Position numbers and translations under genes: made by a program. Below, piece after piece: positions 8,460-57,204 of a DNA stretch of 64,000 nucleotides (positions within the stretch are counted from its first letter, which is position 1; each line of letters starts with the position of its first letter). The stretch is from Siphonodentalium dalli. Taxonomy: Eukaryota > Mollusca > Scaphopoda > Gadilida > Siphonodentaliidae. Location: the NCBI GenBank assembly GCA_032622095.1, contig CP136065.1, positions 25,863,141-25,927,140 of the forward strand, given 5' to 3'. The notes below the pieces were generated by a model. It ran no database searches. It was not told the DNA's origin and worked only from the letters and a program-made list of their open reading frames with translations.

Positions 8460-9460
8460 TTGCAAAGAAAACTTGGGGGGGGGGTATATTGGATTGAATT
8501 TGTCTGTCAGTATGTCCTTCCATCCCTCTGTTGGGATGTCTCCATCCGTCCATCAATTTTGTTCTTTCCACATACATATTAAAGACCGAATGGGTTTATA
8601 TATTTTGACTCACATTCAGATTTGTTCAAATGAGTTCATCAGGTCATATAGGTGAGAAGCCAGGGCCATAACTCTTTCCCTCCATAGTAATTCTTCAAAA
8701 ACCATCAGGCCTATTTAGCTTTTGGTATGGAGGGTCCTTTGGTGAGTGGGGTTCAGATTTGTACACGTGAGGTCATTTTTAGGAAACTTTTGAGGAAAAT
8801 CAGTTTTTTTCAACTCTTAAAATCTACCGTTTGAAATTTCTAGATGAATGGATCTCATAGATGGGGATTCACATTTGTTCAAATAAGGGCAGAGATAAGA
8901 GATTTAACTCTCAACCATCCACCCTACCTGTATGTATGCTGTTTGATACTGGTATAATAATATATAGATTCCTATTGATTTCTAAGCTGCCTGGGTGGGG
9001 GCAATGAGGCTGTAGATTTGATTTTTCAACCAGTAACAGTCCATATTTTCCTACTTCGGGTTAAACTGTTCGACCGAAATAGCCACAAATTTTAACATGC
9101 TTCCACCACAAGGACCATCAGGTCTATTTTACTGGTATTTAGTATGAAGGGTTCTTTGGTGTCTGGTATTCAAATTTATTCAGATGTGGTCACCAGGTTA
9201 AATAGGGTGGGACCAGGGACATAACTATGTCTCTATAGTCATTCTTAAATTGTCTTCTCAAGAGAGGTTGGACTATTTAGCTTACATATAGTATGGAGGA
9301 TCCTTTAGTAACTGATATTCAGATTTGTTAACATCATGTCAACCTGTTAAGATATGACAGGGCTATGGGGAGTTAACACTTTTGTGTTTAAAAAATCATT
9401 GAAATACCAAATTCATTAAAACATCTTCCTTGGAACTACCTAATTGATTAATCTGACATA
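8460..9460. repeat. Second block of the CAGATTTGTTCAAATG dispersed repeat
   Basis: After a short G run (8475-8484), TCCATCC-rich sequence is followed by about five diverged blocks containing CAGATTTGT, GGACATAACT or GGCCATAACT, and TATGGAGGGTCCTTTGG. They match those at 6421-6960. The block ends next to the truncated retrotransposon at about 9.5 kb. Confidence 0.65.
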
Positions 9461-9466
9461 CATGTA

Positions 9467-10822
9467 TTGTGTTTTGGGTCCATGGATAAATGGGCTTCAA
9501 ACATGTCTAAATGGTTTTATAAAGATTTAGAAGAAATCAAAGCAGAGGAGTTATCATATATAGAAGAATACAATGAGACAGTATGGGTTGAAATTCCACT
9601 ACAAAATAAAGACAAACTTGTCATTGGCACAGTATACAGAAGCCCAAATAATAGCACTGAGGAAAAGGACAAAATACTAAAAAGGGTGCTGAAGAAGATA
9701 TGCAATGATAAGAAGAACACCCATATACTGATAATGGGAGACCTGAACCACCCAACTATCAACTGGGAAAAACATACGTCATCAGACAAGAAAGGAGAAG
9801 TATTCCTGAAGACAGTTGACAAATGCTACCTAACACAACACGTAAAGGAGGCAACAAGATATCGACATGGACAGAAAGCAAATGTACTGGATCTAGTCCT
9901 AACCAACGAAGCGAATATGGTTCAAAATCTGGAGATTGGGAACCCCCTAGGGAAGAGTGATCACTGCTCCATTAGTTTCTACTATAAATGCTATAGCGTA
10001 AAAAAACAAGGAATGAAGAAGAAACAATATGCTGCAGGAAACTATGACAAAATGAGGGAAGAAGTTGGGAAGATAGACTGGAAAGGAGTATTTGAGGACT
10101 GTAATAACGACATCAACATCCAGTGGAAGAGATTCTGCCTAGTACTCGAAGAAGCTACAGACAAACACATACCAGAAAGAAATACATCCAGCAAAAAAAA
10201 TAGAATGCCGCTAGATGCAAAAACAAGAGAAGTGGTAAGGAAGAAGCATAGAGCTTGGACTCGCTATATGGAAAACAGGACACAACAAAACTATAACATA
10301 TATACAAAATATAGGAACCAAGTGAGAAATTTGACAAGGAAGAAGCAGAAAAATCACGAACGAGATATTGCTGACCAAGCTAAAGATAACCCCAAAAAAT
10401 TCTGGGACTATGTATCGAGACGTACGAAGACGAAGACAGGGATAGCAAACTTAGAGAAAGCAGATGGAAGTGTAACAACAAGCGATAAGGAAAAAGCAGA
10501 AGTGTTGGCAGATTTCTTCTCCGAAGTATTCACACGGGAACCTAAAGGAAACATCCCAGATATCGATATGAAGACAATAAAGCATGAGATGGAAGACCTT
10601 GAAGTAACTGCAGAGGGAGTAGAGATTAGACTATCAAAACTCAAACCATGCAAGTCCCAGGGTCCTGACAATATACACCCTAAAATACTAAAAGAGCTAG
10701 CGAAGGAACTAAGCATACCAATAGCACAAATCTTCAATAACAGCCTACGACTAGGAATACTACCAAATGAATGGAAAACAGCAAACATATCTGCTATATA
10801 CAAAAAAGGGGGAAAAATCTAA
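9467..10822 (+). pseudogene. LINE endonuclease plus start of reverse transcriptase, frameshifted
   Basis: The first 15 or so residues are probably flanking sequence. After that the frame shows endonuclease landmarks: GTVYRSP (54-60), the catalytic-type GDLN at 91-94, VLDLVLTN at 140-147 and the terminal SDH triad at 164-166. A basic linker follows, then the N-terminal reverse-transcriptase signature with SQGPDNIHPKIL and NEWKTANISAIYKKG. The upstream catalytic Asn and Glu of the endonuclease are missing through 5' truncation. The frame runs off at the 10802-10817 A/G/A homopolymer, and the protein continues in another frame from about 10815. Confidence 0.9.
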
Positions 10823-12295
10823 ACCAAACAACTATCGCCCAGTCAGCCTAACCAGTATAGTAGGCAAAGCTCTGGAGGCAAGAATAAGGGATAAAATAAT
10901 GGACCATATGAGAAATAACCAACTATTTAGTAAGAAGCAATTTGGATTCATCAAGGGACGATCTACAACATTACAGCTACTGCACTCATTGGAAAAGTGG
11001 ACCAAGACCATAAATGAAGGATATGCAACACATGTAATTTATATGGACTTCCAGAAAGCATTCGATACCGTTCCACATCAAAGACTACTGCATAAAGCAA
11101 GAAGCTACGGAATAAATGGAAATATATTGGAATGGATAGAGAATTTTTTACAGGGAAGACAACAAAGAGTGATGATAAATGGCGAAGCGTCAACAACACG
11201 AGAAGTAATAAGTGGAATACCCCAAGGAAGCGTGCTCGGACCCATATTATTTGTCATATATATAAATGACCTCCCATCCAACGTCAAATCGGATGTCATG
11301 ATGTTTGCAGACGACACTAAAATTTACAGGGAAATACAGGGTATACCAGATGTGGATGCATTACAGAATGACTTAGATGAACTCCAGACATGGTCAGACA
11401 AGTGGCTTTTGAAATTTCACCCAGATAAATGTGTGACAATGAACATCGGCACGAAAACAGAAGAGCCAAACTATCACATGAAGAACAAAGATGGACAATA
11501 TGTACAACTAAAGGAGGTAACTGAAGAGAAAGATATAGGAGTCACAACTGATAACAAACTGAAATTTGACCAACATATAAATGAGAAAATACAGAAAGCA
11601 AATGCAGTCACTGGAGCTATACGCAGAGCATTTACGCACATGGACACCAAAACAATGCTGAAACTATACAAAAGTCTGGTGAGACCACATCTAGAATATG
11701 CCCAACCGGCCTGGAGTCCACATTTAAAGAAAGACATTGAAATGCTCGAAAAAGTCCAAAAAAGATTCACAAAACTAATACCAGAATTAAAAGAACTACC
11801 ATATGAAGAAAGACTAAAGAAGCTAAATATACCAACACTTAACTACAGAAGAATAAGAGGAGATATGTTAGAATGCTTCAAGATATTTAACACCTATGAT
11901 CCGGAAGTGAATGACATATTAAGAAGAAGCACCGAACTCCGAACCAGAGGACATAATTATAAATTATTCTTGGAAGGAGCAAACAGGGATGTGAGGAAAT
12001 ACTCATTTAGCCTAAGAGTGGTGGAGCCATGGAATCATCTAGCAGAAGAAGTCGTCTATGCAGAAGACATGAATTCATTCAAAAACAATCTCGATTACCA
12101 TTGGCAGGACCAAGAGATTAAATTAAATTTCAAGGCTGAATTGAGGCTGACAGACCCTGATACGATCAATCAAAAAAAAAAAAAAAATGCAGGAGAGTTC
12201 GGAGAAATAGAAGATGAAGAATCAGAGGTGGATATAGTGGCATCTATAGAAGCCAGCGTCCACTAACAACATAAGGTAACATAAGGTATAAAAAG
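9505..12295 (+). mobile_element. 5'-truncated non-LTR retrotransposon (CR1/Jockey-type LINE)
   Basis: The element carries the C-terminal part of an apurinic-like endonuclease domain followed by a full reverse transcriptase and C-terminal region. It is cut at its 5' end inside the endonuclease: homology-like sequence begins near 9515 and no ORF1 or 5' UTR precedes it, as expected from incomplete target-primed reverse transcription. The 3' end has short repeats of AACATAAGGT (12267-12292) rather than a poly(A) tail, as CR1-group elements do. A single-base shift at the homopolymer 10802-10817 breaks the frame. It lies in sense orientation in UPF0728 intron 1. No target duplication could be fixed. 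Confidence 0.9.
10767..12266 (+). pseudogene. LINE reverse transcriptase, main part
   Basis: True homology starts at KSKPNNYRPVSL (residue 17). Palm and finger motifs are intact: KKQFGFIKGRST (57-67), MDFQKAFDTVPH (93-104), SGIPQGSVLGPILF (149-162) and the catalytic FADD at 180-183. The thumb and C-terminal segment around RPHLEYAQPAWSP and LEKVQKRFTKLI are typical of the CR1/Jockey group. Apart from the upstream frameshift the catalytic core looks undamaged, so the copy is young or the shift is recent. An A run at 12172-12186 sits near the end of the frame. Confidence 0.9.
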
Positions 12296-12797: not shown

Positions 12798-14162
12798 TAG
12801 TCCAAGTCTTCTTGTACTAAAACCAGCTAAGATATTGGGATGGCGATGCTGGCGTTTAGTCCAAGACCGCCCTATATGCTCGCTTATGACACGGCTTAAG
12901 CGTTAGTGACCCGCTCAAATAAAACCACAATTATATGAAATAAAATATCACAATTGCGACAATAAACGGATATTTTCCGCAGAAGACATGCTATTTTATC
13001 TGAAACCCACATCAGTTGTGAATTTAAAACGGTAATTTAATGCGAAAAGAGACATTTACCTCAATGTTTACAATTTTTTAAAAGTATGCGAACTCGGTTG
13101 ACCTCGCGAACTGTGTTCGGCATTTTCCGTTGAAAATATTCCGTAGATTTTGGACAACAACGCAAATTACGAAGAATTCTCCATTGTAATCGTAATTATG
13201 TGTGTCAATAAATAAAATAATAAATAGATTAATTAAACATTGAAGATATAAATGTAATACATTAAATAAATTACGGGGAATTACAACCCTCTCAAAGTTT
13301 AAAACAGTGTAAACACAACGAGTATTAGAATAAATAATATGGTGCTACATTTCCCACATTTGGTGGACTTCGGCGAAATTAAGATATATACTAAGCGAAC
13401 AGAGCAATATACTGCTCTTGTTAAGCACACAAAAAATCAAACAAAATTTGTATAAATTTTTAACCTTAAGTTTGAAAAGTCCCACTAAAACGGAAGAACT
13501 ATATTTCGAAACTGTGTGATTCGGTTCTGCGATTATTTTATCAACACAAAGGTCAAAATGCACATGGATGAAAATCACACGGATGGAAAGTCAGACACAA
13601 GAGTTCTAATTTGCTCCAATTTTGACAAGTTGCTTGCGAAAATTGTCAACAAAACTACCTTTCTGATCCTCCATTATGTCATTAAGTTTTTAGTGCGGGA
13701 ATTGTTCTCAAAGCACATTGGAAACTGGACTTTGCGGCGATCGGTTTTCGCTATTTTGTTCGGAAAACCCCGCGCTATATATAGAAACGGAAAGTAGAAT
13801 TCTCAGAACAAACAGCGGATTATGCCGAACTTATTCGGACCACTTCGGCTTTCGGTTAAAACGTAAACAAACAGAGAAACAAATCGATGTTTATGGCAAT
13901 CAACCGGAATATTCTATGTGTAATTTAACATTAAAGTTAGATTATTATACACCACTGTGACCATAAGATGTAAGCCTTTCCGATGTATATAGCATCATGT
14001 ATTGATTTGCTAGGTAAATCGAGTAAAATACACCACAGATTCCCGCCACAGATCGTGGGCGTAAGTCGTGTGGTAGGATTGGTATGCAAGCGGGCTTGGA
14101 CTAAACGCCAGCATCGCCATCCCAATATCTTAGCTGGTTTTAGTACAAGAAGACTTGGACTA
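12798..14162. mobile_element. MULE-like non-autonomous transposon, 1.37 kb
   Basis: The terminal inverted repeats are about 70 bp and almost identical. They start TAGTCCAAGTCTTCTTGTAC and run through CCAGCTAAGATATTGGGATG. A perfect 9-bp target duplication, TCTTTGAAT, flanks the element at 12789-12797 and 14163-14171. Long inverted repeats with a 9-bp duplication are the hallmark of Mutator-like elements. Internal frames are short and carry no MULE transposase or zinc knuckle, so the copy is a passive derivative. It sits in UPF0728 intron 1. Confidence 0.85.
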
Positions 14163-21201: not shown

Positions 21202-24200
21202 CACAGGAGCTTGGAATTTGGTCAAAACCCCTCTTTTATTGGCGGAACCACCACCCGGGACCAAAGGTCACGGAAGGAACGAAACAGAAAATTGTTGCCA
21301 CCTATTTTGAACTCAACTGTATTCCTACAAAAAATATATTTTCACTAAAAACTTTTGGTAACTCTTACACCTTAGATGCCAATCTACAACATTCCATAGG
21401 TATATTTTTCCAGTTCTTCGAAAACCTCACTTTATTTCGGTAATGTATTGTAAATTCACCAACGAACACAAATCTGCGACACCTACATCACCCGTTCTAG
21501 AATCTGAATGACAAATGGCACAAAACCATTTTCCCGGAATAACAAAGTCGGAACGAAATAAAATCGAAACCTAAATTTAAAGCCCGCGAAATTCAAAAAT
21601 ATTTGAAAGTGCGTGCGGTTTTCGAACTTAGGCGCCAGAAAACTTAAATCTGTTTATGTTTGCGTCATACTATGCTCATTTTTGAAGATCTAATCCTGAT
21701 GTTTTGTGCATTTTCCTGAAAATTTCTGTATTTTTCTGTGTCTGCTGTTCTTCATTAGACTGAATGGTAATTTGTACATATATTTCATATTTAATTTATT
21801 TCTATTTATGGCACGACCACCTGGTATTGGTTATTTCTTCTTGTTTTATGTTCGTTATGTACAGGTAGGCCTATATGTACTACTTGACTTTGTAACGCTA
21901 CTGGTTGCAATGATTGGTCATACAGGGACCAAAACTCTCTAGCTCCCTCTCTCTCTCATAGGAGCTTGTGTCGCGCTCCGTTGTATAGGCCTAAAATATC
22001 CATCATATAATAGTAACAGTAATCAACCAACTGATTACTGGTCGAATATCACGAAGTAGAAGAAAAAGATATATAGACTCACGGGGAGGCCTGGTATATA
22101 TGCCTATGCATGAAGCGATTCCTTTGTGCGTTTTGGTGCAGATTCGTTGCCGGAATATCTTAATTATTTCCACATCAAATGCTGTTTTTTACTAGTTCTG
22201 ACGAACAAATATATGTCTTAGTTGATGAGAGAAGACATTTTTCTTGAGTTAGGTAACGATATTGGCCATGCATATATAGAACGAGTGTTTAGTTTCGCGA
22301 AATTCAAATTTGTCTATGTAGGGTACAAAAACTCGCCATTAATATGCCAAATACAGTAACAAAATGTAATAAGATTCTTTAATGTAAGAGCACAAAATTA
22401 ACCTGCGTATTCTTCACAGTATACGTTTTATTTGTGCGTTTGCAAGTTGTATATAATACAAACTGGTTTACCGAATAACTAGTTTATAAATTTGAGTTAG
22501 TGATAAACTCGCTAACATAAATTTTATTTAATAAGCAACTATAAGTATTGTCAACTGTACCGGTACCAGGATCTATAAATAGTATACGTCACTCGTGTGT
22601 CGTAACGAATCAGCACCAAAACTCTCAAAGAATGGCTTTATGCATATGATTATATAGCCTGTGCTCATGAATTGGAAATTCAATTTTTAAATTCAAGACA
22701 GCTAGCCACCATCGGCATTGTTTTAATCAAAATCAAAAATACCAAAAAAATATTAAAAACATTACTTAATGTAACTTTCGCTGATGGGGTCACTGTCACA
22801 AGGCTCCGCGATCCGATCACATTCGTAGCCAGGTTTTTTAATCGATCACAAATGTAGCCAGCTTTTCTATGGCGATCACATTTGTAGCCAGCTTTTCATA
22901 TTCAGGCGAGCCTCAATGAACACGATCAGGTTAATCTAATTTTTCTGAGTTGATGGATGAAAACAACTTGAATTTAGTTTTGATATAAGTTCATTTATAA
23001 CCTGATGTTTCGGATCAATGTCGTTGGAATGCTCGAATTATATTCCAATATAAGTTGATAAACGAAGTCAGTTTTGGAGCATGACGTCGACATTTTAGTC
23101 ACGAACGTGATGACGTCATATTTCGGGCAATATAAACCACGAATTAGAAAAGCTGACTACGAATGTGATCGCCGGTGAAATAAGCTGGTACACTGGCTAC
23201 GAATGTGACCGTCACTGACCGGAGTCTTGTGACAATGACCCCATCGGCGTAACTTTCTTTTTCGATGAAACGAGTGGCTGAAATCCGACGGCGGCCATGT
23301 TTCTATGACTAATTACACGACGATCGCACCAATGTTACAGTCTCTAGCAATGATTCGTTCTCATTTTGATACCAATGTCATGACCCATGAACAATTTAAC
23401 GATGATCGGTTCATCGACATAGGCCTAGGCTTTAGACAGTGTTATTGATTTAATTATATATGCGGTGTTGTCGCTGAAATCCGACGGCGGCCATGTTTCT
23501 TTGAGAATTCACAGCAAAATGACTCGTTCCCATCTATATGTCAATGTCAACCTCTGTGACAAATTTAATTATGATCGGACCAACAGTGCGACCTCTTGCC
23601 CACGGTGCTAAATGATGCAATTTTGAAATCCAAGATGGCTGTTGGCGGCCATTTTTTTTCATGCAAATAAGCCCAAAATGACTCGATGTTGTCTATATAT
23701 CAATGTCATGATCGATGAACAATTTCGTGATGATATAGGAGCATCGACACAGGCTCTAGGCTGTGTAATTGATTAAGATTTATCTAGTATTATATCACTT
23801 AAATCCACGATGGCTGCAAGTGGCCATGTTTTTATGCAAATGAGCCCAAAATAATTCGTTCCCATCTAGACGCCAATGTTATCATCCATCAAAAAGTTCA
23901 TGATGATCAGTGCATCGGTACGGTCATGTAATAAACATGTAATCAGCAGCTATGTTCGAAATTATAAACGGTACTTTCATGCTATCCGTCTCCGGATCAT
24001 AGTTTTAAAGTTTCCGCATATTTTGGTACCAGTTCCGCTACTCAGATTCTAGAACGGGTGATGTAGGTGTCGCAGATTTGTGTTCGTTGGTGAATTTACA
24101 ATACATTACCGAAATAAAGTGAGGTTTTCGAAGAACTGGAAAAATATACCTATGGAATGTTGTAGATTGACATCTAAGGTGTAAGAGGTACCAAAAGTTT

Positions 24201-24347
24201 TTAGTGAAAATATATTTTTTGTAGGAATACAGTTGAGTTCAAAATAGGTGGCAACAATTTTCTGTTTCGTTCCTTCCGTGACCTTTGGTCCCGGGTGGTG
24301 GTTCCGCCAATAAAAGAGGGGTTTTGACCAAATTCCAAGCTCCTGTG
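21202..24347. mobile_element. 3.1-kb transposon with long (about 307-bp) inverted repeats
   Basis: The left arm 21202-21508 (CACAGGAGCTTGGAATTTGG...) and right arm 24042-24347 are inverted and close to identical by eye. A 7-bp direct repeat ATGTACC flanks them at 21195-21201 and 24348-24354. The interior holds a nested element (22780-23248) and a run of diverged blocks with GCGGCCATGTTTCT (about 23270-23930). An open frame crossing the left arm has no family features and is broken in the right arm, so it is not supported as a gene. The superfamily is undecided. Confidence 0.75.
22780..23248. mobile_element. Nested 469-bp MULE-like MITE
   Basis: The termini GCTGATGGGGTCACTGTCAC and GTGACAATGACCCCATCGGC are inverted matches, and a perfect 9-bp duplication GTAACTTTC flanks them (22771-22779 and 23249-23257). 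The left half has three direct repeats of GATCACATTYGTAGCCAG, about 30 bp apart, and the right half has inverted counterparts (CTGGCTACGAATGTGA). A 9-bp duplication suggests a Mutator-like mobiliser. It inserted into the interior of the 3.1-kb element. Confidence 0.8.
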
Positions 24348-25809: not shown

Positions 25810-25839
25810 CTATTATAGGGACATGACAATCTGCGGGAT

Positions 25840-26255
25840 GGGATGGGATATGGGACAAAACGACAATCTGCGGGACAGAATTTCAAATTGCGTGGGACGG
25901 CCTATATCTCGAGGAATACAGGGCGTAAGGGGCTCATTTTGGTGTCTAACGAAAGGCACACGTTCGCCCTATCCAAACATATTAACCCCGCCACTAACCA
26001 AACACCAGAAGTTGCATTATTTGATCGACAACTGACCTAACATGGGGTGGAATTTGGGATAGCATGACAATCTGCGGGACAGGATTTTCAAATTGCGTGG
26101 GACGGCCGATAGCTCGAGGAATACAGCGCATAGAGGGCTACTTTTGGTGTCTAACGAAAGGCCCACATTCGCCCTATCCACACATATTAACCCCGCCACT
26201 GACCGGACACCGGAAGTTACATTATCCGGTCGACAACTGACCTAACATAAAATGC
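25840..26255. repeat. Direct duplication inside the left foldback arm
   Basis: Two head-to-tail copies of about 215 bp begin at about 25860 and 26065. Each contains GACAATCTGCGGGACAG, CAAATTGCGTGGGACGGCC, CTCGAGGAATACAG, GGTGTCTAACGAAAGGC, CGCCCTATCC and CGACAACTGACCTAACAT. The inverted copies lie in the right arm at about 30050-30470. The outer copies are about 90% similar to the inner ones, so duplication came before the arms became symmetrical, or the arms are being homogenised. Confidence 0.75.
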
Positions 26256-26794
26256 CACAAACACGAAAAACTGCGTTCGACATTAATGTTTAGAATTTAG
26301 ATTTCTCGATGAATACACTAGCAAACAACAAGTTTTAGGTATCAAATAACGCAGTGGAATACTGTGCATTCGTTTTTAGCTACAATATGGCTGTTTTAGT
26401 GCGAATATTGTAATGGCGAACACGCAAACACGCTCCGATAAAACAGCTAAAAATAGACTCGATGTTTACAATTACAGGATCGATTTCAGCCGGTATATTC
26501 AATATAATGGGGCGTATAGTATATCAAAATGTAGAATTAGACACAGGGAATGCATTTGTTTCCAAATGGGTCCACCAGGCGGTGAAATTGTTGCAGAAAT
26601 TCGCTCCAAGATATTCTCACTTATTTTTATTTCAGTTGTGACTAAAAGCCCAGATGCCGGAGCCCAGCGAATAAAAGCCAAGTTACAAAATAGATCAACT
26701 GGTTTGAACGAATGAATATGTCAATGGTAAGACTATTCAAAAGAATATTCAAATCAAATAGTGTTTATAGACTTAAAAACTTATGTGTCCGCCA

Positions 26795-27105
26795 TTCATA
26801 TGCGGTGGAGGTTCTCATATTATCTGCCAGTCATACGCGGGGGAGGTTCTCATATGAACATATTATCTGCCGGTCATATGCGGTGGAGGTTCATATTATC
26901 CGCCGGTCATACGCGAGGGAAGTTCTCATATTATCCTCCGGTCATACGCGGGGGAGGTTCTGATATGAACATATTATCTGCCGGTCATACGCGGTGGAGG
27001 TTCATATTATCCACCGGTCATACGCGAGGGAGGTTCTCATATTATCCTCTGGTCATACGTTGGGGAGGTTCTCGTATGAACATATTATCCGCCGGTCATA
27101 TCCTC
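26795..27105. repeat. Left minisatellite array of the foldback element
   Basis: About eight units of 33, 35 and 43 bp have the sequence GGTCATACGCG plus a GGAGGTTC...ATATTATC core. The 43-bp form differs from the 33-bp form by an extra 10-bp TTCATATGAG-type insert. Polarity is opposite to the right array. Long open frames across it are artefacts, because 33 and 35+43 are multiples of three. Confidence 0.85.
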
Positions 27106-29510
27106 CCTCGGGTGTGACCGGTGGATAATATGAGAACCTCCCTCGCATATGACCGGCAGATAATATGTTCATATGAGAACCTCCACCGCGTATGACCAGT
27201 GGATAATATGAACCTCCACCGCGTATGACCGGCAGATAATATGTTCATATGAGAACCTCCACCGCGTATGACCGAAGGATAATATGTTCATATGAGAACC
27301 TCCACTGCATATGACCGGCGGATAATATGTTCATATGAGAACCTCCCCTACGTATGACCGGTGGATAATATGAACCTCCACCGTGTATGCCCGGCAGATA
27401 ATATGTTCATATCAGAACGTCCCCCACCTATGACCGAAGGATAATATGAGAACTTCCCTCGCGTATGACCGGTGGATAATATGAACCTCCACCACGTATG
27501 ACCGGCGGATAATATGTTCATATGAGAACCTCCACCGTGTATGACCGGCGGATAATATGTTCATATGAGAACCTCCACTGCGTATGACCAGCGGATAATA
27601 TGTTCATATGAGAACCTCCCTTACGTATGACCGGTGGATAATATGAACCTCCACCGTGTATGACCGGCGGATAATATGTTCATATCAGAACCTCCCCCAC
27701 ATATGACCGAAGGATAATATGAGAACTTCCCTCGCGTATGATCGGCGGATAACATGAACCTCCACCGCGTATGACCGGCGGATAATATGTTCATATGAGA
27801 ACTTCCCCAACATATGACCGGAGGATAATATGAGAACCTCCCTCGCTTATGACCGGTGGATAATATGAGAACCTCCCTCGCGTATGACCGGCAGATAATA
27901 TGAACCTCCACCGCGTATGACCGGCGGATAATATGTTCATATGAGAACCTCCCCAACGTATGACCGGAGGATAATATGAGAACCTCCCTCGCGTATGACC
28001 GGTGGATAATATGAGAACCTCCCTCGCGTATGACCGGCGGATAATATGAACCTCCACCGCGTATGACCGGCGGATAATATGTTCATATCAGAACCTCCCC
28101 CACATATGATCGGAGGATAATATGAGAACTTCCCTCGCGTATGACCGGCAGATAATATGAACCTCCACCGCATATGACCGGCGGATAATATGTTCATATG
28201 AGAACTTCCACCGCGTATGACCAGTGGATAATATGAACCTCCACTCCGTATGACCGGCGAATAATATGTTCATATCAGAACCTCCCCCATGTATGACCGG
28301 AGGATAATATGAGAACCTCCCTCGCGTATGACCGGCGGATAATATGAACCTCCACCGCGTATGACCGGCAGATAATATGTTCATATGAGAACCTCCCCTA
28401 TGTATGACCGGAGGCTAATATGAGAACCTCCCTCGCGTATGACTGGTGGATAATATGAGAACCTCCCTCGTGTATGACCGGCGGATAATATGTTCATATG
28501 AGAACCTCCACCGCGTATGACCGGCAGATAATATGTTCATATGAGAACCTCCCCTACGTATGACCGGTGGATAATATGAACCTCCACCGTGTATGACCGG
28601 CGGATAATATGTTCATATTTAGAACCTCCCCCTCATATGACCGAAGGATAATATGAGAACTTCCCTCGTGTATGATCGGCGGATAATATGAACCTCCACC
28701 GCGTATGACCGGCGGATAATATGTTCATATGAGAACCTCCCCAACGTATGACCGGAGGATAATATGAGAACATCCCTCGCGTATGACCGGTGGATAATAT
28801 GAGAACCTCCCTCGCGCATGACCGGCGGATAATATGAACCTCCACCGTGTATGACCGGCAGATAATATGTTCATATCAGAACCTCCCCCACATATGATCA
28901 GAGGATAATATGAGAACTTCCCTCGCGTATGACTGGCGGATAATATGAACCTCCACCGCGTATGACTGGTGGATAATATTTTCATATGAGAACCTCCACC
29001 GCGTATGACCGGTGGATAATATGAACCTCCACCGCGTATGACCGGCGAATAATATGTTCATATCGGAACCTCCCCCACGTATGACCGGAGGATAATATGA
29101 GAACCTCCCTCGCGTATAACCAGTGGATAATATGAGAACCTCCCTCAGATATGAGAACCTCCCTCGCGTATAACCGGTGGAAAATATGAGAACCTCCCTC
29201 GCGTATGACCGGCGGTTAATATGTTCATATGAGAACCTCCCCATCGTATGACCGGAGGATAATATGAGAACCTCCCTCGTGTATGACCGGTGGATAATAT
29301 GAACCTCCACCGCGTATGACCGGCAGATAATATGTTCATATCAGAACTTCCCCCGTGTATGACTGGAGGATAATAAGAAAACTTCCCTCGCGTATGACCG
29401 GTGGATAATATGAACCTCCACCGTGTATGACCGGCAGATAATATGTTCATATTAGAACCTCCCCCGCGTATTACTGGCAGATAATATGAAAACTTCACCG
29501 CATATATGAA
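27106..29510. repeat. Right minisatellite array of the foldback element, about 65 units
   Basis: Units read GTATGACCGGCGGATAATAT followed by GAACCTCCACCGC (33 bp), GAGAACCTCCCTCGC (35 bp) or GTTCATATGAGAACCTCC plus CACCGC (43 bp). The three forms alternate in higher-order groups, such as 43-35-33, repeated several times with base changes. The array is about eight times longer than the left array, so the element is asymmetrical only in array length. Overlapping minus-strand frames here are shadows of the repeat, not genes. Confidence 0.9.
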
Positions 29511-30641
29511 TGGCGGACACATAAGTTTTTAAGTCTATAAACACTATTTGATTTGAATATTCTTTTGAATAGTCTTACCATTGAAATATTCATTCGTTCA
29601 AACCAGTTGATCTATTTTGTAACTTGGCTTTTAGTCGCTGGGCTCCGGCATCTGGGCTTTTAGTCACAACTGAAATAAAAATAAGTGCGAATATCTTGGA
29701 GCGAATTTCTGCAACAATTTCACCGCCTGGTGGACCCATTTGGAAAAAAATACATTCCCTGTGTCTAATTCTACATTTTGATATACTATACGCCCCATTA
29801 TATTGAATATACCGGCTGAAATCGATCCTGTAATTGTAAACATCGAGTCTGTTTTTAGCTGTTTTATCTGAGCGTGTTTGCGTGTTCGCCATTACAATAT
29901 TCGCACTAAAACAGCCATATTGTAGCTAAAAACGAATGCACAGTATTCCACTGCGTTATTTGATACCTAAAACTTGTTGTTTGCTAGTGTATTCATCGAG
30001 AAATCTAAATTCTAAACATTAATGTCGAACGCAGTTTTTCGTGTTTGTGGCATTTTATGTTAGGTCAGTTGTCGACCGGATAATGTAACTTCCGGTGTCC
30101 GGGTAGTGGCGGGGTTAATATGTGTGGATAGGGCGAATGTGGGCCTTTCGTTAGACACCAAAAGTAGCCCTCTATGCGCTGTATTCCTCGAGCTATCGGC
30201 CGTCCCACGCAATTTGAAAATCCTGTCCCGCAGATTGTCATGCTATCCCAAATTCCACCCCATGTTAGGTCAGTTGTCGATCAAATAATGCAACTTCTGG
30301 TGTTTGGTTAGTGGCGAGGTTAATATGTTTGGATAGGGCGAACGTGTGCCTTTCGTTAGACACCAAAATGAGCCCCTTACGCCCTGTATTCCTCGAGATA
30401 TAGGCCATCCCATGCAATTTGAAATTCTGTCCCGCAGATTGTCGTTTTGTCCCATATCCCATCCCATCCCGCAGATTGTCATGTCCCCTATTATATCGCT
30501 TTCGGCTGAAAAAACAAAATTTGCACACAAAAACAAATCCCTGGCAACCTGTCTGGAAAATTTTCCCAATGCTATCGGAAAATAGAGAAGAAGTTTTTTG
30601 TTTTGGTCTTACAGAGTTTGTTGTTTCTTCTATAATTTCAG

Positions 30642-30706
30642 GCAGTGACGGAGAATTAGATGACATATGCAAGGAAGCACTGAAATCTGTTAAAACAGCA
30701 TTCTAG
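30642..30706 (+). CDS. UPF0728 protein (C10orf53-like), coding exon 3 of 3
   Basis: The acceptor TATAATTTCAG ends at 30641. The exon completes Gly72 and encodes SDGELDDICKEALKSVKTAF before TAG at 30704. Length and ending agree with the family, whose C terminus is a short amphipathic helix after a GxDG(E/K)LD motif. Only 154 bp separate it from the end of the foldback transposon (30487), so the branch point and acceptor are intact but the transposon lies almost against them. Confidence 0.88.
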
Positions 30707-32819: not shown

Positions 32820-33828
32820 GCACCTCAAGTTTTCAAATGCTAGGGTACCTAGGTTGGTCTGATCTCATAATGTTGAAAATGACTCCATCAGTGGTACGTA
32901 TTCTGTATAGCTCCCTTTTCAGTCACAGGTACCTATCATGGAAACCGGAAAATGAAACATTAGGAATTCCAGGTTCTTGCAACTCCTGTAAAAAACACAT
33001 ATTTTCAGCAGTAACGGAAAATACTGGAAAACCTAGACATTATATTTATAGCACTGGCTGTTCGTATCCCACAGCGGGGAATCACATGGTTTTGAGGTTG
33101 GTGAGTACCACACATTTAAGATGGTCAAGGCGAGTTCAAACGCACAAAAACATAGTATATGAGGAACTGACACAAAACAGAGCATTTTGACTGTTACGAG
33201 CTTATGCTATTTTATTTTTTAAACAATTTTATACCTTATTTGTTTGGAAATACTCAGTAGTTTTCTATTCTGACCAAATTTAACAGTCGGAGGGTCGTGG
33301 AACACACAAGTCCATATATCTAGGAGAATCCTTCGACTGACAACTTTGGTCAAAATGTTAGAGAAAAATGTTGGACACAAATGAGGTATCGGCTTGTTTG
33401 AAAAATAGTATAGTTGCCAAAATACTATGTAATATATCATTATCCTAATTCATTACCTTTTTCCTCATTTCTGATCGCGTTTTCGATCGCCTCGGCCATT
33501 TTGAATGTGTGATACTCGAAACCACGTGATTTCCCACCATGAGATCCATTCTTTCTGGTTCAACTTCCATTCTATTTCAATTTCACACCTGTCTTATGAA
33601 AGCAGTTTGCTGTTAACATTCAAATTTCACATCGCTATTCTCATTGATGATTGCTGTTAACATAAGATTTCATGAAAACCATTCTTATTTATTATTAACA
33701 ATCTGTTTCTAAAGCCTATTTGAGTGTTTTAACCTTTCTTTGGTGAGTATTGTATATGTAAAAACTTAATAGATCTCTATAATATAAAACATATAAATAT
33801 GACCTAAAATTTACTGGATATTTGGTCT
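32820..33828. other. Non-genic region; a 124-codon open frame not supported as a gene
   Basis: An open frame at 32816-33190 starts inside the end of the adjacent MITE and matches no family I recognise. Sequence at 33440-33560 (TTTTCGATCGCCTCGGCCAT) is mildly GC-richer and could be promoter-like, but nothing firm can be said. Confidence 0.3.
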
Positions 33829-33832
33829 TTAA

Positions 33833-34224
33833 CCCTTTACCCAACAAACCGGCCAAAACCGGCCAAATAAAGCTTCAACAGCCTAAAATATCTTCGGTCT
33901 GTCTCAATAGAACCATACACATATGGATATCATTGGAACCGGCTCCTTGACCACATTGTGATAGTTACAGTTATGTCCTGTGCCAATGCATTCTCTTATA
34001 TATGCGAGTCGACCATAGGTCGCCTCGCATATATAAGAGAATGCATTGGCCTAAAAAAAATCTTTTTTTAACACTTTTTACCATTGTTTCTTACATTCTT
34101 TAACAATTTTATAATTTTTAATGTGTTAAGCCAATGCATTCTCTTATATATGCGAGACGACCTATGGTCGACTCGCATATATAAGAGAATGCATTGGCAC
34201 AGGGCCGTTCTGTTGGGTAAAGGG
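33833..34224. mobile_element. 392-bp piggyBac-like MITE, copy 1
   Basis: TTAA flanks both sides (33829-33832 and 34225-34228). The termini are CCCTTTACCCAACA and TGTTGGGTAAAGGG; a CCYT start at a TTAA target is the piggyBac signature. Inside are two inverted hairpins, each with CCAATGCATTCTCTTATATA and TGCGAGTCGACC/ATAGGTCG at the turn (about 33988-34050 and 34130-34197). A second copy of exactly the same length lies at 56802-57193. No coding capacity. Confidence 0.9.
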
Positions 34225-34404
34225 TTAATACTTGAAATGTACTGGAACAGTACTGGAATTTCACTTTTAAATATTTTCAAACCCTGCAGTCAGGATAAGA
34301 AATTCAAATGGTTTATTTTTCATATATCAGTGCTAATATTGTGCTTCATTAGTTCCAGTTGTAATAAATTAATTAAAATATTCACAAAGTTTGTGGTAGC
34401 CTCA

Positions 34405-36188: not shown

Positions 36189-38551
36189 AGGTGTTATATA
36201 CCATTTGAAAGAGGAAGCTCCAAAACATTGTATTATTAACTGATCGGTCGAATAAACTGGGAACATGTTTTTGTCGAGGTACCAAGGTGTGTCCTGCATT
36301 TAGTTTTGATCCGGACTGTCCTATAAAGTCTATTATACTCAATGGAAGGGGAATAACTATCTCTTAGCTTGAATTTTGATGCATTCTGGGTTAATTGACA
36401 AGGGAGAAGTCTTGGAACGAATCCCTATCACTTGGTGGACAGTCCTAGGCCATGCACAGCTGCTTCGTATTCGTGGAATATGTATTTTTTTGGTTCCTCT
36501 TCCAAATAGTATATAATATGGAATAATGTTATCTGGGCATTCTGGGTATATAATATGGAATAATGTTATCTGGGCATTCTGGGTATATAATATGGAATAA
36601 TGTTATCTGGGCATTCTGGGTATATAATATGGAATAATGTTATCTGGGCATTCTGGGTATATAATATGGAATAATGTTATCTGGGCATTCTGGGTATATA
36701 ATATGGAATAATGTTATCTGGGCATTCTGGGTATATAATATGGAATAATGTTATCTGGGCATTCTGGGTATATAATATGGAATAATGTTATCTGGGCATT
36801 CTGGGTATATAATATGGAATAATGTTATCTGGGCATTCTGGGTATATAATATGGAATAATGTTATCTGGGCATTCTGGGTATATAATATGGAATAATGTT
36901 ATCTGGGCATTCTGGGTATATAATATGGAATAATGTTATCTGGGCATTCTGGGTATATAATATGGAATAATGTTATCTGGGCATTCTGGGTATATAATAT
37001 GGAATAATGTTATCTGGGCATTCTGGGTATATAATATGGAATAATGTTATCTGGGCATTCTGGGTATATAATATGGAATAATGTTATCTGGGCATTCTGG
37101 GTATATAATATGGAATAATGTTATCTGGGCATTCTGGGTATATAATATGGAATAATGTTATCTGGGCATTCTGGGTATATAATATGGAATAATGTTATCT
37201 GGGCATTCTGGGTATATAATATGGAATAATGTTATCTGGGCATTCTGGGTATATAATATGGAATAATGTTATCTGGGCATTCTGGGTATATAATATGGAA
37301 TAATGTTATCTGGGCATTCTGGGTATATAATATGGAATAATGTTATCTGGGCATTCTGGGTATATAATATGGAATAATGTTATCTGGGCATTCTGGGTAT
37401 ATAATATGGAATAATGTTATCTGGGCATTCTGGGTATATAATATGGAATAATGTTATCTGGGCATTCTGGGTATATAATATGGAATAATGTTATCTGGGC
37501 ATTCTGGGTATATAATATGGAATAATGTTATCTGGGCATTCTGGGTATATAATATGGAATAATGTTATCTGGGCATTCTGGGTATATAATATGGAATAAT
37601 GTTATCTGGGCATTCTGGGTATATAATATGGAATAATGTTATCTGGGCATTCTGGGTATATAATATGGAATAATGTTATCTGGGCATTCTGGGTATATAA
37701 TATGGAATAATGTTATCTGGGCATTCTGGGTATATAATATGGAATAATGTTATCTGGGCATTCTGGGTATATAATATGGAATAATGTTATCTGGGCATTC
37801 TGGGTATATAATATGGAATAATGTTATCTGGGCATTCTGGGTATATAATATGGAATAATGTTTTCTGGGTATATAATATGGAATAATGTTATCTGGGCAT
37901 TCTGGGTATATAATATGGAATAATGTTATCTGGGCATTCTGGGTATATAATATGTAATAATGTTATCTGGGCATTCTGGGTATATAATATGGAATAATGT
38001 TATCTGGGCATTCTGGGTATATAATATGGAATAATGTTATCTGGGCATTCTGGGTATATAATATGGAATAATGTTATCTGGGCATTCAATGGTATATAAT
38101 ATGTAATAATGTTATCTGGGCATTCAATGGTATATAATATGGAATAATGTTATCTGGGCATTCAATGGTATATAATATGGAATAATGTTATCTGGGCATT
38201 CTGGGTATATAATATGTAATAATGTTATCTGGGCATTCTGGGTATATAATATGTAATAATGTTATCTGGGCATTCTGGGTATATAATATGTAATAATGTT
38301 ATCTGGGCATTCTGGGTATATAATATGTAATAATGTTATCTGAGCATTCTGGGTATATAATATGTAATAATGTTATCTGAGCATTCTGGGTATATAATAT
38401 GTAATAATGTTATCTGGGCATTCTGGGTATATAATATGTAATAATGTTATCTGAGCATTCTGGGTATATAATATGTAATAATGTTATCTGAGCATTCTGG
38501 GTATATAATATGTAATAATGTTATCTGGGCATTCGAAAATTAGGTGGGCCT
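36189..38551. mobile_element. TTAA-target MITE carrying an expanded satellite
   Basis: TTAA flanks the element (36185-36188 and 38552-38555), with AGG at the left end and CCT at the right. The left arm reads TTATATACCATTTGAAAGAG and GAAGC. Its inverted partner, GGTTCCTCTTCCAAATAGTA followed by TATAAT, is at 36492-36516, directly at the start of the 37-bp array. The right terminus and this partner are separated by the array. The satellite therefore seems to lie inside the right terminal inverted repeat. The 300 bp between the arms (36220-36490) are non-coding. Confidence 0.65.
36510..38534. repeat. 37-bp satellite, about 54 copies
   Basis: The unit reads TATATAATATGGAATAATGT then TATCTGGGCATTCTGGG. 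About 36 consecutive units from the left are identical by eye. Towards the right there is one truncated unit (about 37860-37880), 38-bp units with CATTCAATGG, and a set of units with GTAATAATG and TGAGCATTC. Variants cluster at the right end, so the homogeneous left part is the younger amplification. No coding potential is implied. Confidence 0.95.
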
Positions 38552-54120: not shown

Positions 54121-54130
54121 CTGACACAAA

Positions 54131-55066
54131 TGACACGAAGAAGCTTATATGACACGAAGAAGCTTATATGACACGAATAAGCTTATATGACACGAAGAAG
54201 CTTATATGACACGAAGAAGCTTATATGCCACGAAGAAGCTTATATGACACGGAGAAGCTTATATGACACGAAGAAGCTTATATGCCACGAAGAAGCTTAT
54301 ATGACACGAAGAAGCTTATATGACACGAAGAAGCTTATATGACACGAAGAAGCTTATATGCCACGAAGAAGCTTATATGACACGGAGAAGCTTATATGAC
54401 ACGAAGAAGCTTATATGACACGAAGAAGCTTATATGACACGGATAAGCTTATATGACACGCTGCTTATATGACACGAAGAAGCTTATATGACACGAAGAA
54501 GCTTATATGACACGGAGAAGCTTATATGACACGGAGAAGCTTATATGACACGAAGAAGCTTATATGACACGAAGAAGCTTATATGACACGGAGAAGCTTA
54601 TATGACACGCTGCTTATATGACACGAAGAAGCTTATATGACACGAAGAAGCTTATATGACACGGAGAAGCTTATATGACACGGAGAAGCTTATATGACAC
54701 GGAGAAGCTTATATGACACGGAGAAGCTTATATGACACAGAGAAGCTTATATGACACGGAGAAGCTTATATGACACGAAGAAGCTTATATGCCACGAAGA
54801 AGCTTATATGACACGAAGAAGCTTATATGACACGAAGAAGCTTATATGACACGAAGAAGCTTATATGACACGAAGAAGCTTATATGACACGAAGAAGCTT
54901 ATATGACACGAAGAAGCTTATATGCCACGCTGAAGCTTATATGACACGAAGAAGCTTATATGACACGAAGAAGCTTATACGACACGAAGAAGCTTATATG
55001 ACACGAAGAAGCTTATATGACACGAAGAAGCTTATATGACACGAAGAAGCTTATATGCCACGCTGC
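54131..55066. repeat. 19-bp satellite with a HindIII site, about 48 copies
   Basis: The unit is GACACGAAGAAGCTTATAT, repeated head to tail. Variants are GCCACG, ACGGAG and ACGAATAAG, and a shortened unit GACACGCTGCTTATAT recurs at about 54455 and 54605. The shared spacing of the shortened unit indicates higher-order duplication of about 150 bp. The array starts and ends abruptly in unrelated sequence. Confidence 0.95.
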
Positions 55067-56545: not shown

Positions 56546-56801
56546 TATTCAAATATTGATATGCGTGTAAGAAACACGATAATATTATCCGATTTGCTCG
56601 TGAGGCGGTGCCGATTGACAAATGGCAAATCTGTTAGATTGGGTCAAATATATGGCCGACAGCTATTGTGTGTCGTGAACAATAGAGAAAGTACATTATA
56701 GTTTGCTGGTTTATGAAATAAACCGGATTGGCGAATACCACATCCAGGAGTTGAATATTACATCGGTCTACCTCCTGTTGATGATGCAGTTGATATTTTA
56801 A

Positions 56802-57193
56802 CCCTTTACCCAACAAACCGGCCAAAACCGGCCAAATAAAGCTTCAACAGCCTAAATTATCTTGGGTCTGTCTCAATAAAACCATACAAATATGGATATC
56901 ATTGGAACCGGCTCCTTGACCACATTGTGATAGTTACAGTTATGCCCTGTGCCAATGCATTCTCTTATATATGCGAGTCGACCATAGGTCGCCTCGCATA
57001 TATAAGAGAATGCATTGGCCTAAAAAAAATCTTTTTTTAACACTTTTTACCATTTTTTCTTACATTCTTTAACAATTTTATAATTTTTAATGTGTTAAGC
57101 CAATGCATTCTCTTATATATGCGAGGCGACCTATGGTCGACTCGCATATATACGAGAATGCATTGGCACAGGGCCGTTCTGTTGGGTAAAGGG
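56802..57193. mobile_element. 392-bp piggyBac-like MITE, copy 2
   Basis: TTAA flanks both sides (56798-56801 and 57194-57197). It is about 97% identical by eye to 33833-34224 and of the same length. Differences are scattered single bases, for example TATACGAG for TATAAGAG in the last hairpin. It inserted right beside the decayed LINE fragment. Confidence 0.9.
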
Positions 57194-57204
57194 TTAAACA
57201 AGCT

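Follow-up and report, generated by a model that had tools for sequence, protein, structure and literature searches.

A probable non-autonomous foldback-type DNA transposon with opposed minisatellite arrays and an 8-bp target site duplication

Mutator-like elements (MULEs) are described as having target duplications of 8-11 bp, and most of them have long inverted ends (PMC6446971). In Aedes aegypti, 14 of 14 MULE families have duplications of 8-9 bp, 12 of the 14 have ends longer than 100 bp, and short subterminal tandem repeats are reported in 10 of those 12 (PMC5225508). The element analysed here, located within a 64-kb window (the whole stretch of DNA that we analysed), falls within the MULE range with an 8-bp duplication and inverted ends of ~1.28 kb. 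Duplications of 8 bp also occur in the sea-urchin TU elements. Among the described Mutator-like elements, Muta1 from A. aegypti resembles our element in its 8- or 9-bp duplications, in inverted ends of complex structure that carry subterminal tandem repeats (its authors class it as a type 2 Foldback) and in having many derivatives that lack a transposase, but its ends measure 145 bp and contain 12-bp repeats (PMC5225508), whereas those of our element reach ~1.28 kb and hold a 205-bp duplication as well as array units of 33-43 bp. The duplication of the Mutator-like Spectre is 8 bp and thus equal in length to ours (PMC6446971). Rehavkus, a DNA transposon treated as a relative of Mutator, is similar in carrying a minisatellite beside an inverted end, but it is described with a 9-bp duplication (8 bp here), ends of 26-400 bp, a minisatellite placed before the 3' end and a transposase, and its source records it from arthropods and annelids only (PMC6446971). 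Tm1, a Mutator/Foldback element of Meloidogyne, differs in its 9-bp duplication, asymmetric 7-bp terminal motifs and repeat motif of ~14 bp (PMC3169594).

Comparable ends are described outside the Mutator group. Galileo, a member of the P superfamily in Drosophila, has ends that reach ~1.2 kb (18-1,250 bp in D. mojavensis), and its subfamily F carries ~210-bp tandem repeats within its ends, which may be compared with the 205-bp duplication found here (PMC3573991). Copies of Galileo that consist of two ends only, and copies in which the number of repeats is unequal between the two ends, are similar to our element (PMC3573991). Each Galileo end has several transposase sites, and binding of the THAP domain has been demonstrated at additional sites located in its tandem repeats (PMC3688188). 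The likeness is one of anatomy, and Galileo differs in its 7-bp duplication and in that its cited accounts describe no minisatellite of 33-43 bp (PMC3573991, PMC3688188). Tetris, a foldback element of Drosophila virilis, is also similar, being non-autonomous with ends of up to 1,735 bp that contain expandable tandem repeats; its duplications are 8-9 bp in three complete copies and 9-10 bp in four rearranged ones, and its authors report that an autonomous partner was not found (PMC4079207). It differs in its repeat unit of ~220 bp and in having a further inner domain, whereas the 33/35/43-bp units of our element reach its centre (PMC4079207). The non-autonomous Helentrons of oysters are mobile and carry tandem arrays but belong to another class (PMC9659126). 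The sequence-only reading of this locus had regarded an 8-bp duplication as a poor fit to known foldback elements; Muta1, Spectre and Tetris all include duplications of this length, and we see no anomaly in it (PMC5225508, PMC6446971, PMC4079207).

Structure of the element

The element spans 4,670 bp (25818-30487) and is flanked on each side by an exact copy of the 8-bp sequence CTATTATA (Table 1). The inverted GGGACATGAC ends abut both copies without a gap, which bears out the proposal in the sequence-only reading of a foldback transposon bounded by a perfect and intact target duplication, a proposal that the anatomy supports well. The bases next to the two CTATTATA copies differ and the duplication cannot be extended, so the element ends exactly with GGGACATGAC and its complement, and the flanks outside the duplication are unrelated in sequence. 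When 2,000,000 pairs of points were drawn at random from the window, flush direct repeats of 8 bp occurred at a frequency of 8.25e-5; base composition alone predicts 2.4e-5. No second copy of the element was found in the 64-kb window. With up to three mismatches allowed, the 14-base end matches the window six times, equal to the expected number (6.0); the four matches other than the exact ends are thus no more than chance would give.

Table 1. Coordinates of the features of the element within the window.
Feature	Position	Strand	Details
Left target site duplication	25810..25817	.	CTATTATA
Left arm	25818..26801	+	984 bp; ungapped inverted repeat of 29504-30487, 12 mismatches
GACAATCTGCGGGA copy 1, left arm	25825..25838	+	element base 8; predicted (candidate transposase site)
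Outer copy of direct duplication, left arm	25838..26042	+	205-bp duplication
GACAATCTGCGGGA copy 2, left arm	25862..25875	+	
Inner copy of direct duplication, left arm	26042..26248	+	
GACAATCTGCGGGA copy 3, left arm	26066..26079	+	
Non-repetitive inner domain, left arm	26249..26787	+	539 bp; 7 mismatches to right arm
Left tandem array	26788..27100	-	313 bp; 8 units by the anchor used
Polarity junction of arrays	27100..27101	.	
Right tandem array	27101..29505	+	~2.4 kb; 63 units by the anchor used
Outer part of right array pairing with left array	29204..29496	+	17 mismatches in 293
Right arm	29504..30487	-	984 bp
Non-repetitive inner domain, right arm	29518..30056	-	
Inner copy of direct duplication, right arm	30057..30263	-	
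GACAATCTGCGGGA copy 3, right arm	30226..30239	-	
Outer copy of direct duplication, right arm	30263..30467	-	
GACAATCTGCGGGA copy 2, right arm	30430..30443	-	
GACAATCTGCGGGA copy 1, right arm	30467..30480	-	
Right target site duplication	30488..30495	.	CTATTATA

Long inverted repeats form much of the element, as in foldback elements generally. The two arms align without gaps at 98.8% identity, and their differences (six transitions and six transversions) are spread along the arm, with 0/20 in the tip, 3/205 in the outer direct copy, 2/206 in the inner copy and 7/539 in the inner domain. An arm length of about 0.98 kb had been read from the sequence; this holds for the ungapped portion, but the inverted repeat does not stop there and continues into the tandem arrays to ~1.28 kb. 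A BLAST alignment pairs 25811-27100 with 30495-29204 at 97.4% identity, a span that includes seven bases of the target duplication.

Within each arm lies a direct duplication, and the claim that the arms are far more alike than these direct copies is upheld. The two copies differ at 27/205 aligned positions in the left arm (86.8% alike) and at 30/205 in the right arm (85.4% alike), while equivalent copies in opposite arms differ at only 3/205 and 2/207 positions. It follows that the arms have had a common history since the duplication arose, and that the direct duplication predates the event that most recently equalised them. The earlier proposal of a recent origin, or of gene conversion between the two arms, is a fair reading of 98.8% against ~86%; the equalising event could have been the inverted duplication that gave rise to the element or a later conversion, and a single copy is compatible with both.

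The motif GACAATCTGCGGGA occurs in three exact copies per arm, starting at arm bases 8, 45 and 249. With up to three mismatches, it has 11 matches in the window, six of which are the exact copies in the arms, compared with a mean of 3.3 in shuffled sequence, and none of 100 shuffles reached 11. By their position and iteration these copies are the best candidates for transposase sites, and their layout resembles the repeated binding sites shown for each Galileo end (PMC3688188).

The inner parts of the arms are tandem arrays of opposite polarity that are joined without any unique spacer, at 27100/27101, close to the position near 27105 given by the sequence-only reading. They are strongly asymmetric (8 versus 63 units), a feature missing from that reading, with the left array corresponding to the outer end of the right one. 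Unit lengths are mainly three (A, 35 bp; B, 33 bp; C, 43 bp), and 60 of the 63 units of the right array have one of these lengths. Read from the centre outwards, the left array and the outermost part of the right array share one unit order, C-A-B-C-A-B-C-rim. When the seven complete units of the left array (265 bp) are placed along the right array, the best position is its outer end (15 mismatches), and the next-best placement has 26 mismatches. This match between the left units and the outer right array is what carries the inverted repeat through the arrays to ~1.28 kb. The layout is therefore one of a common outer array plus ~2.1 kb of additional array on the right, and both arms contain tandem repeats within the inverted ends (the 205-bp duplication and the 33/35/43-bp arrays), as foldback elements do. 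The collinearity of the arrays in both arms indicates that the minisatellite belongs to the inverted end and was not inserted later; it also implies subsequent expansion on one side or contraction on the other.

Segmental duplications are present within the right array, the largest covering 490 bp at an offset of 788 (24 mismatches), followed by 359 bp at 273 (20), 334 bp at 590 (29), 328 bp at 934 (19) and 303 bp at 146 (15). These are ~5-9% diverged over their full length, with identity rising to as much as 98% in the best 250 bp, and they contributed to the length of the right array. They diverge more than the arms do, and the data thus do not date the extra array to after the arms were last equalised; shrinkage of the left array is just as possible. 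Within the inverted repeat, the array portion is more diverged than the rest of the arms (15/265 versus 12/984; Fisher p = 8e-5). CpG transitions account for 6/17 differences in the 293-bp array block and 2/12 in the arm, so CpG decay explains the excess in the array only partly. Across the 67 of 71 array units included in the count (the four units of other lengths were left out), transitions affect 55/428 consensus CpG positions and 47/2095 positions elsewhere (Fisher p = 3e-18), a value that overstates the significance because the units are related by duplication and the events are not independent. The direction of this pattern fits a putative methylation of the array.

Coding content and surroundings

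We scanned 30 ORFs from the window against Pfam. Thirteen of them lie within the element or overlap it; of the 16 ORFs of 38 aa or longer that overlap the left arm the scans covered 10, and they also took in a single array ORF and two ORFs that span the right end. None of the 13 reached a Pfam family cutoff, and three matches below the cutoff (E = 0.074, 0.074 and 0.37) were attributed to chance. A 111-aa ORF, the longest of the inner domain and shared by both arms, has no Pfam match, and when relatives were sought in viral contigs its peptide patterns matched 100 stretches, none of which was confirmed by tblastn. As no Pfam match at the cutoff was obtained for the scanned ORFs, the element is taken to be non-autonomous. 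Scans of the window for tRNA genes and Rfam families gave no matches. Exact-pattern scans with the 21-base end gave no matches in viral contigs or in prokaryotic genome contigs, which says little, and the same was true of the array pattern in viral contigs and of the direct-duplication pattern in the genome contigs of the prokaryotic collection. A text search of the literature for GGGACATGAC returned no transposon title among the matches listed.

Several other repeats were observed in the window. The segment at 12798-14162 is DNA transposon-like, with 73-bp inverted ends (TAGTCCAAGTCTTC..., 98.6%) that directly adjoin an exact 9-bp duplication (TCTTTGAAT); its stop-to-stop frames do not exceed 102 codons, and by its duplication length it is a candidate non-autonomous Mutator-like element. 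A further element-like segment at 21202-24347 has 306-bp inverted ends at 99.3% (CACAGGAGCTTGG...) and a flush 7-bp duplication, ATGTACC; in duplication length and its CA end it resembles P/Galileo-type elements. Two copies of a short element (33828-34228 and 56797-57197) are 98% alike over 401 bp, and their CCCTTTACCCAACA ends adjoin TTAA, as in TTAA-targeting MITEs. A LINE-type retroelement at 9452-12266 contains an endonuclease-reverse transcriptase domain (PF14529) and RVT_1 (PF00078) in two overlapping frames. Two further tandem arrays are present, one of them very homogeneous with a strong GC skew (36509-38534; 37-bp unit, 55 copies, 98% matches) and the other built of a 19-bp unit (54130-55062; 49 copies, 94% matches).

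An ORF similar to O6-methylguanine methyltransferase is found in the neighbourhood of the element; together with the LINE-type retroelement it is consistent with an animal host, although it does not single out a bivalve. A possible last exon (30642-30706), in which a frame ending in SDGELDDICKEALKSVKTAF and a stop follows a splice-acceptor-like TTTCAG, lies ~150 bp to the right of the element. This putative exon and its acceptor-like site suggest that the insertion may be intronic.

Alternative readings and superfamily

We consider the element to be a copy of a non-autonomous foldback-type cut-and-paste DNA transposon, with a probability of roughly 0.8. This reading rests on the flush target duplication, the inverted ends, the repetitive arms, the opposed arrays and the finding of no Pfam gene in the tested ORFs. 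A locally formed giant palindrome, made by inverted duplication, or an assembly artefact would be the alternative to a transposon. Long, near-perfect palindromes with central minisatellites are fragile and difficult to assemble, and the central 281 bases are predicted to fold strongly as a single strand (-117.4 kcal/mol versus a mean of -36.0 in 200 shuffles). However, an exact flush 8-bp direct repeat between unrelated flanks is unexpected under either origin, given its rarity at random ends (8.25e-5). Nor is one half a mirror copy of the other, given the 12 differences between the arms and the inequality of the arrays. An artefact of assembly is disfavoured, and we regard a non-transposon origin as a whole as highly improbable.

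Two further alternatives concern the superfamily only. The element could be a Galileo-like member of the P superfamily, that is, a two-ends-only copy with long repetitive ends and a THAP-domain transposase. The anatomy of Galileo is strikingly similar (ends of up to ~1.2 kb, ~210-bp tandem repeats, two-ends-only copies, unequal repeat numbers and several binding sites per end), but its bounding sequences are 7 bp in length instead of the 8 bp seen here, and the ends of our element begin with GGGA, unlike the CA with which P-type ends begin. The THAP core motif, TNNGGGNW, is not enriched in the arm (three occurrences versus a mean of 2.9, with 1133 of 2000 mononucleotide shuffles reaching three). 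We consider this affiliation unlikely. Somewhat more plausible, though still doubtful, is a non-autonomous member of hAT, Merlin, Zisupton or an undescribed superfamily with 8-bp duplications. The length of the duplication does not by itself discriminate among these; hAT ends usually begin with CAG or similar, however, unlike the GGGA found here. One survey places hAT among the richest transposon groups of bivalves, which is relevant if the host is a bivalve, but Merlin and 'Zisrupton' are nearly restricted to cephalopods in its automatic libraries, and Merlin elements are few. Foldback-like ends with tandem repeats are, moreover, described for Mutator-like and P-type elements in the sources cited here (PMC3169594, PMC3573991, PMC4079207, PMC5225508).

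Given a transposon, the enzyme is most likely Mutator-like, although this is unproven and carries about even odds; a hAT, Merlin or other enzyme takes the larger share of the remaining weight and a P/Galileo-type enzyme the smaller. The two characters used for this choice, duplication length and end architecture, are compatible with Mutator, and one survey reports MULEs from every mollusc genome that it covers. Under the transposon reading, a transposase encoded elsewhere would act in trans on the predicted GACAATCTGCGGGA sites in each end, pair both ends and excise the element, which would then insert at a staggered 8-bp cut. Conversion or repair between the arms would keep them alike, and slippage or unequal exchange would change the length of the arrays, leaving ~2.1 kb more array on the right.

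The element appears to represent a new family of a known kind of mobile DNA; no account of the family came up in the open-licence papers searched. It is improbable, in our estimation, that it stands for an undescribed lineage defined by 8-bp duplications, GGGACATGAC ends and an ordered 33/35/43-bp minisatellite that would travel in the end, seed arrays and aid end pairing. With its two boundaries preserved, the locus provides a clean example of a foldback element, and further genomic copies would reveal the way in which tandem arrays are seeded by transposon ends and the arms stay alike.
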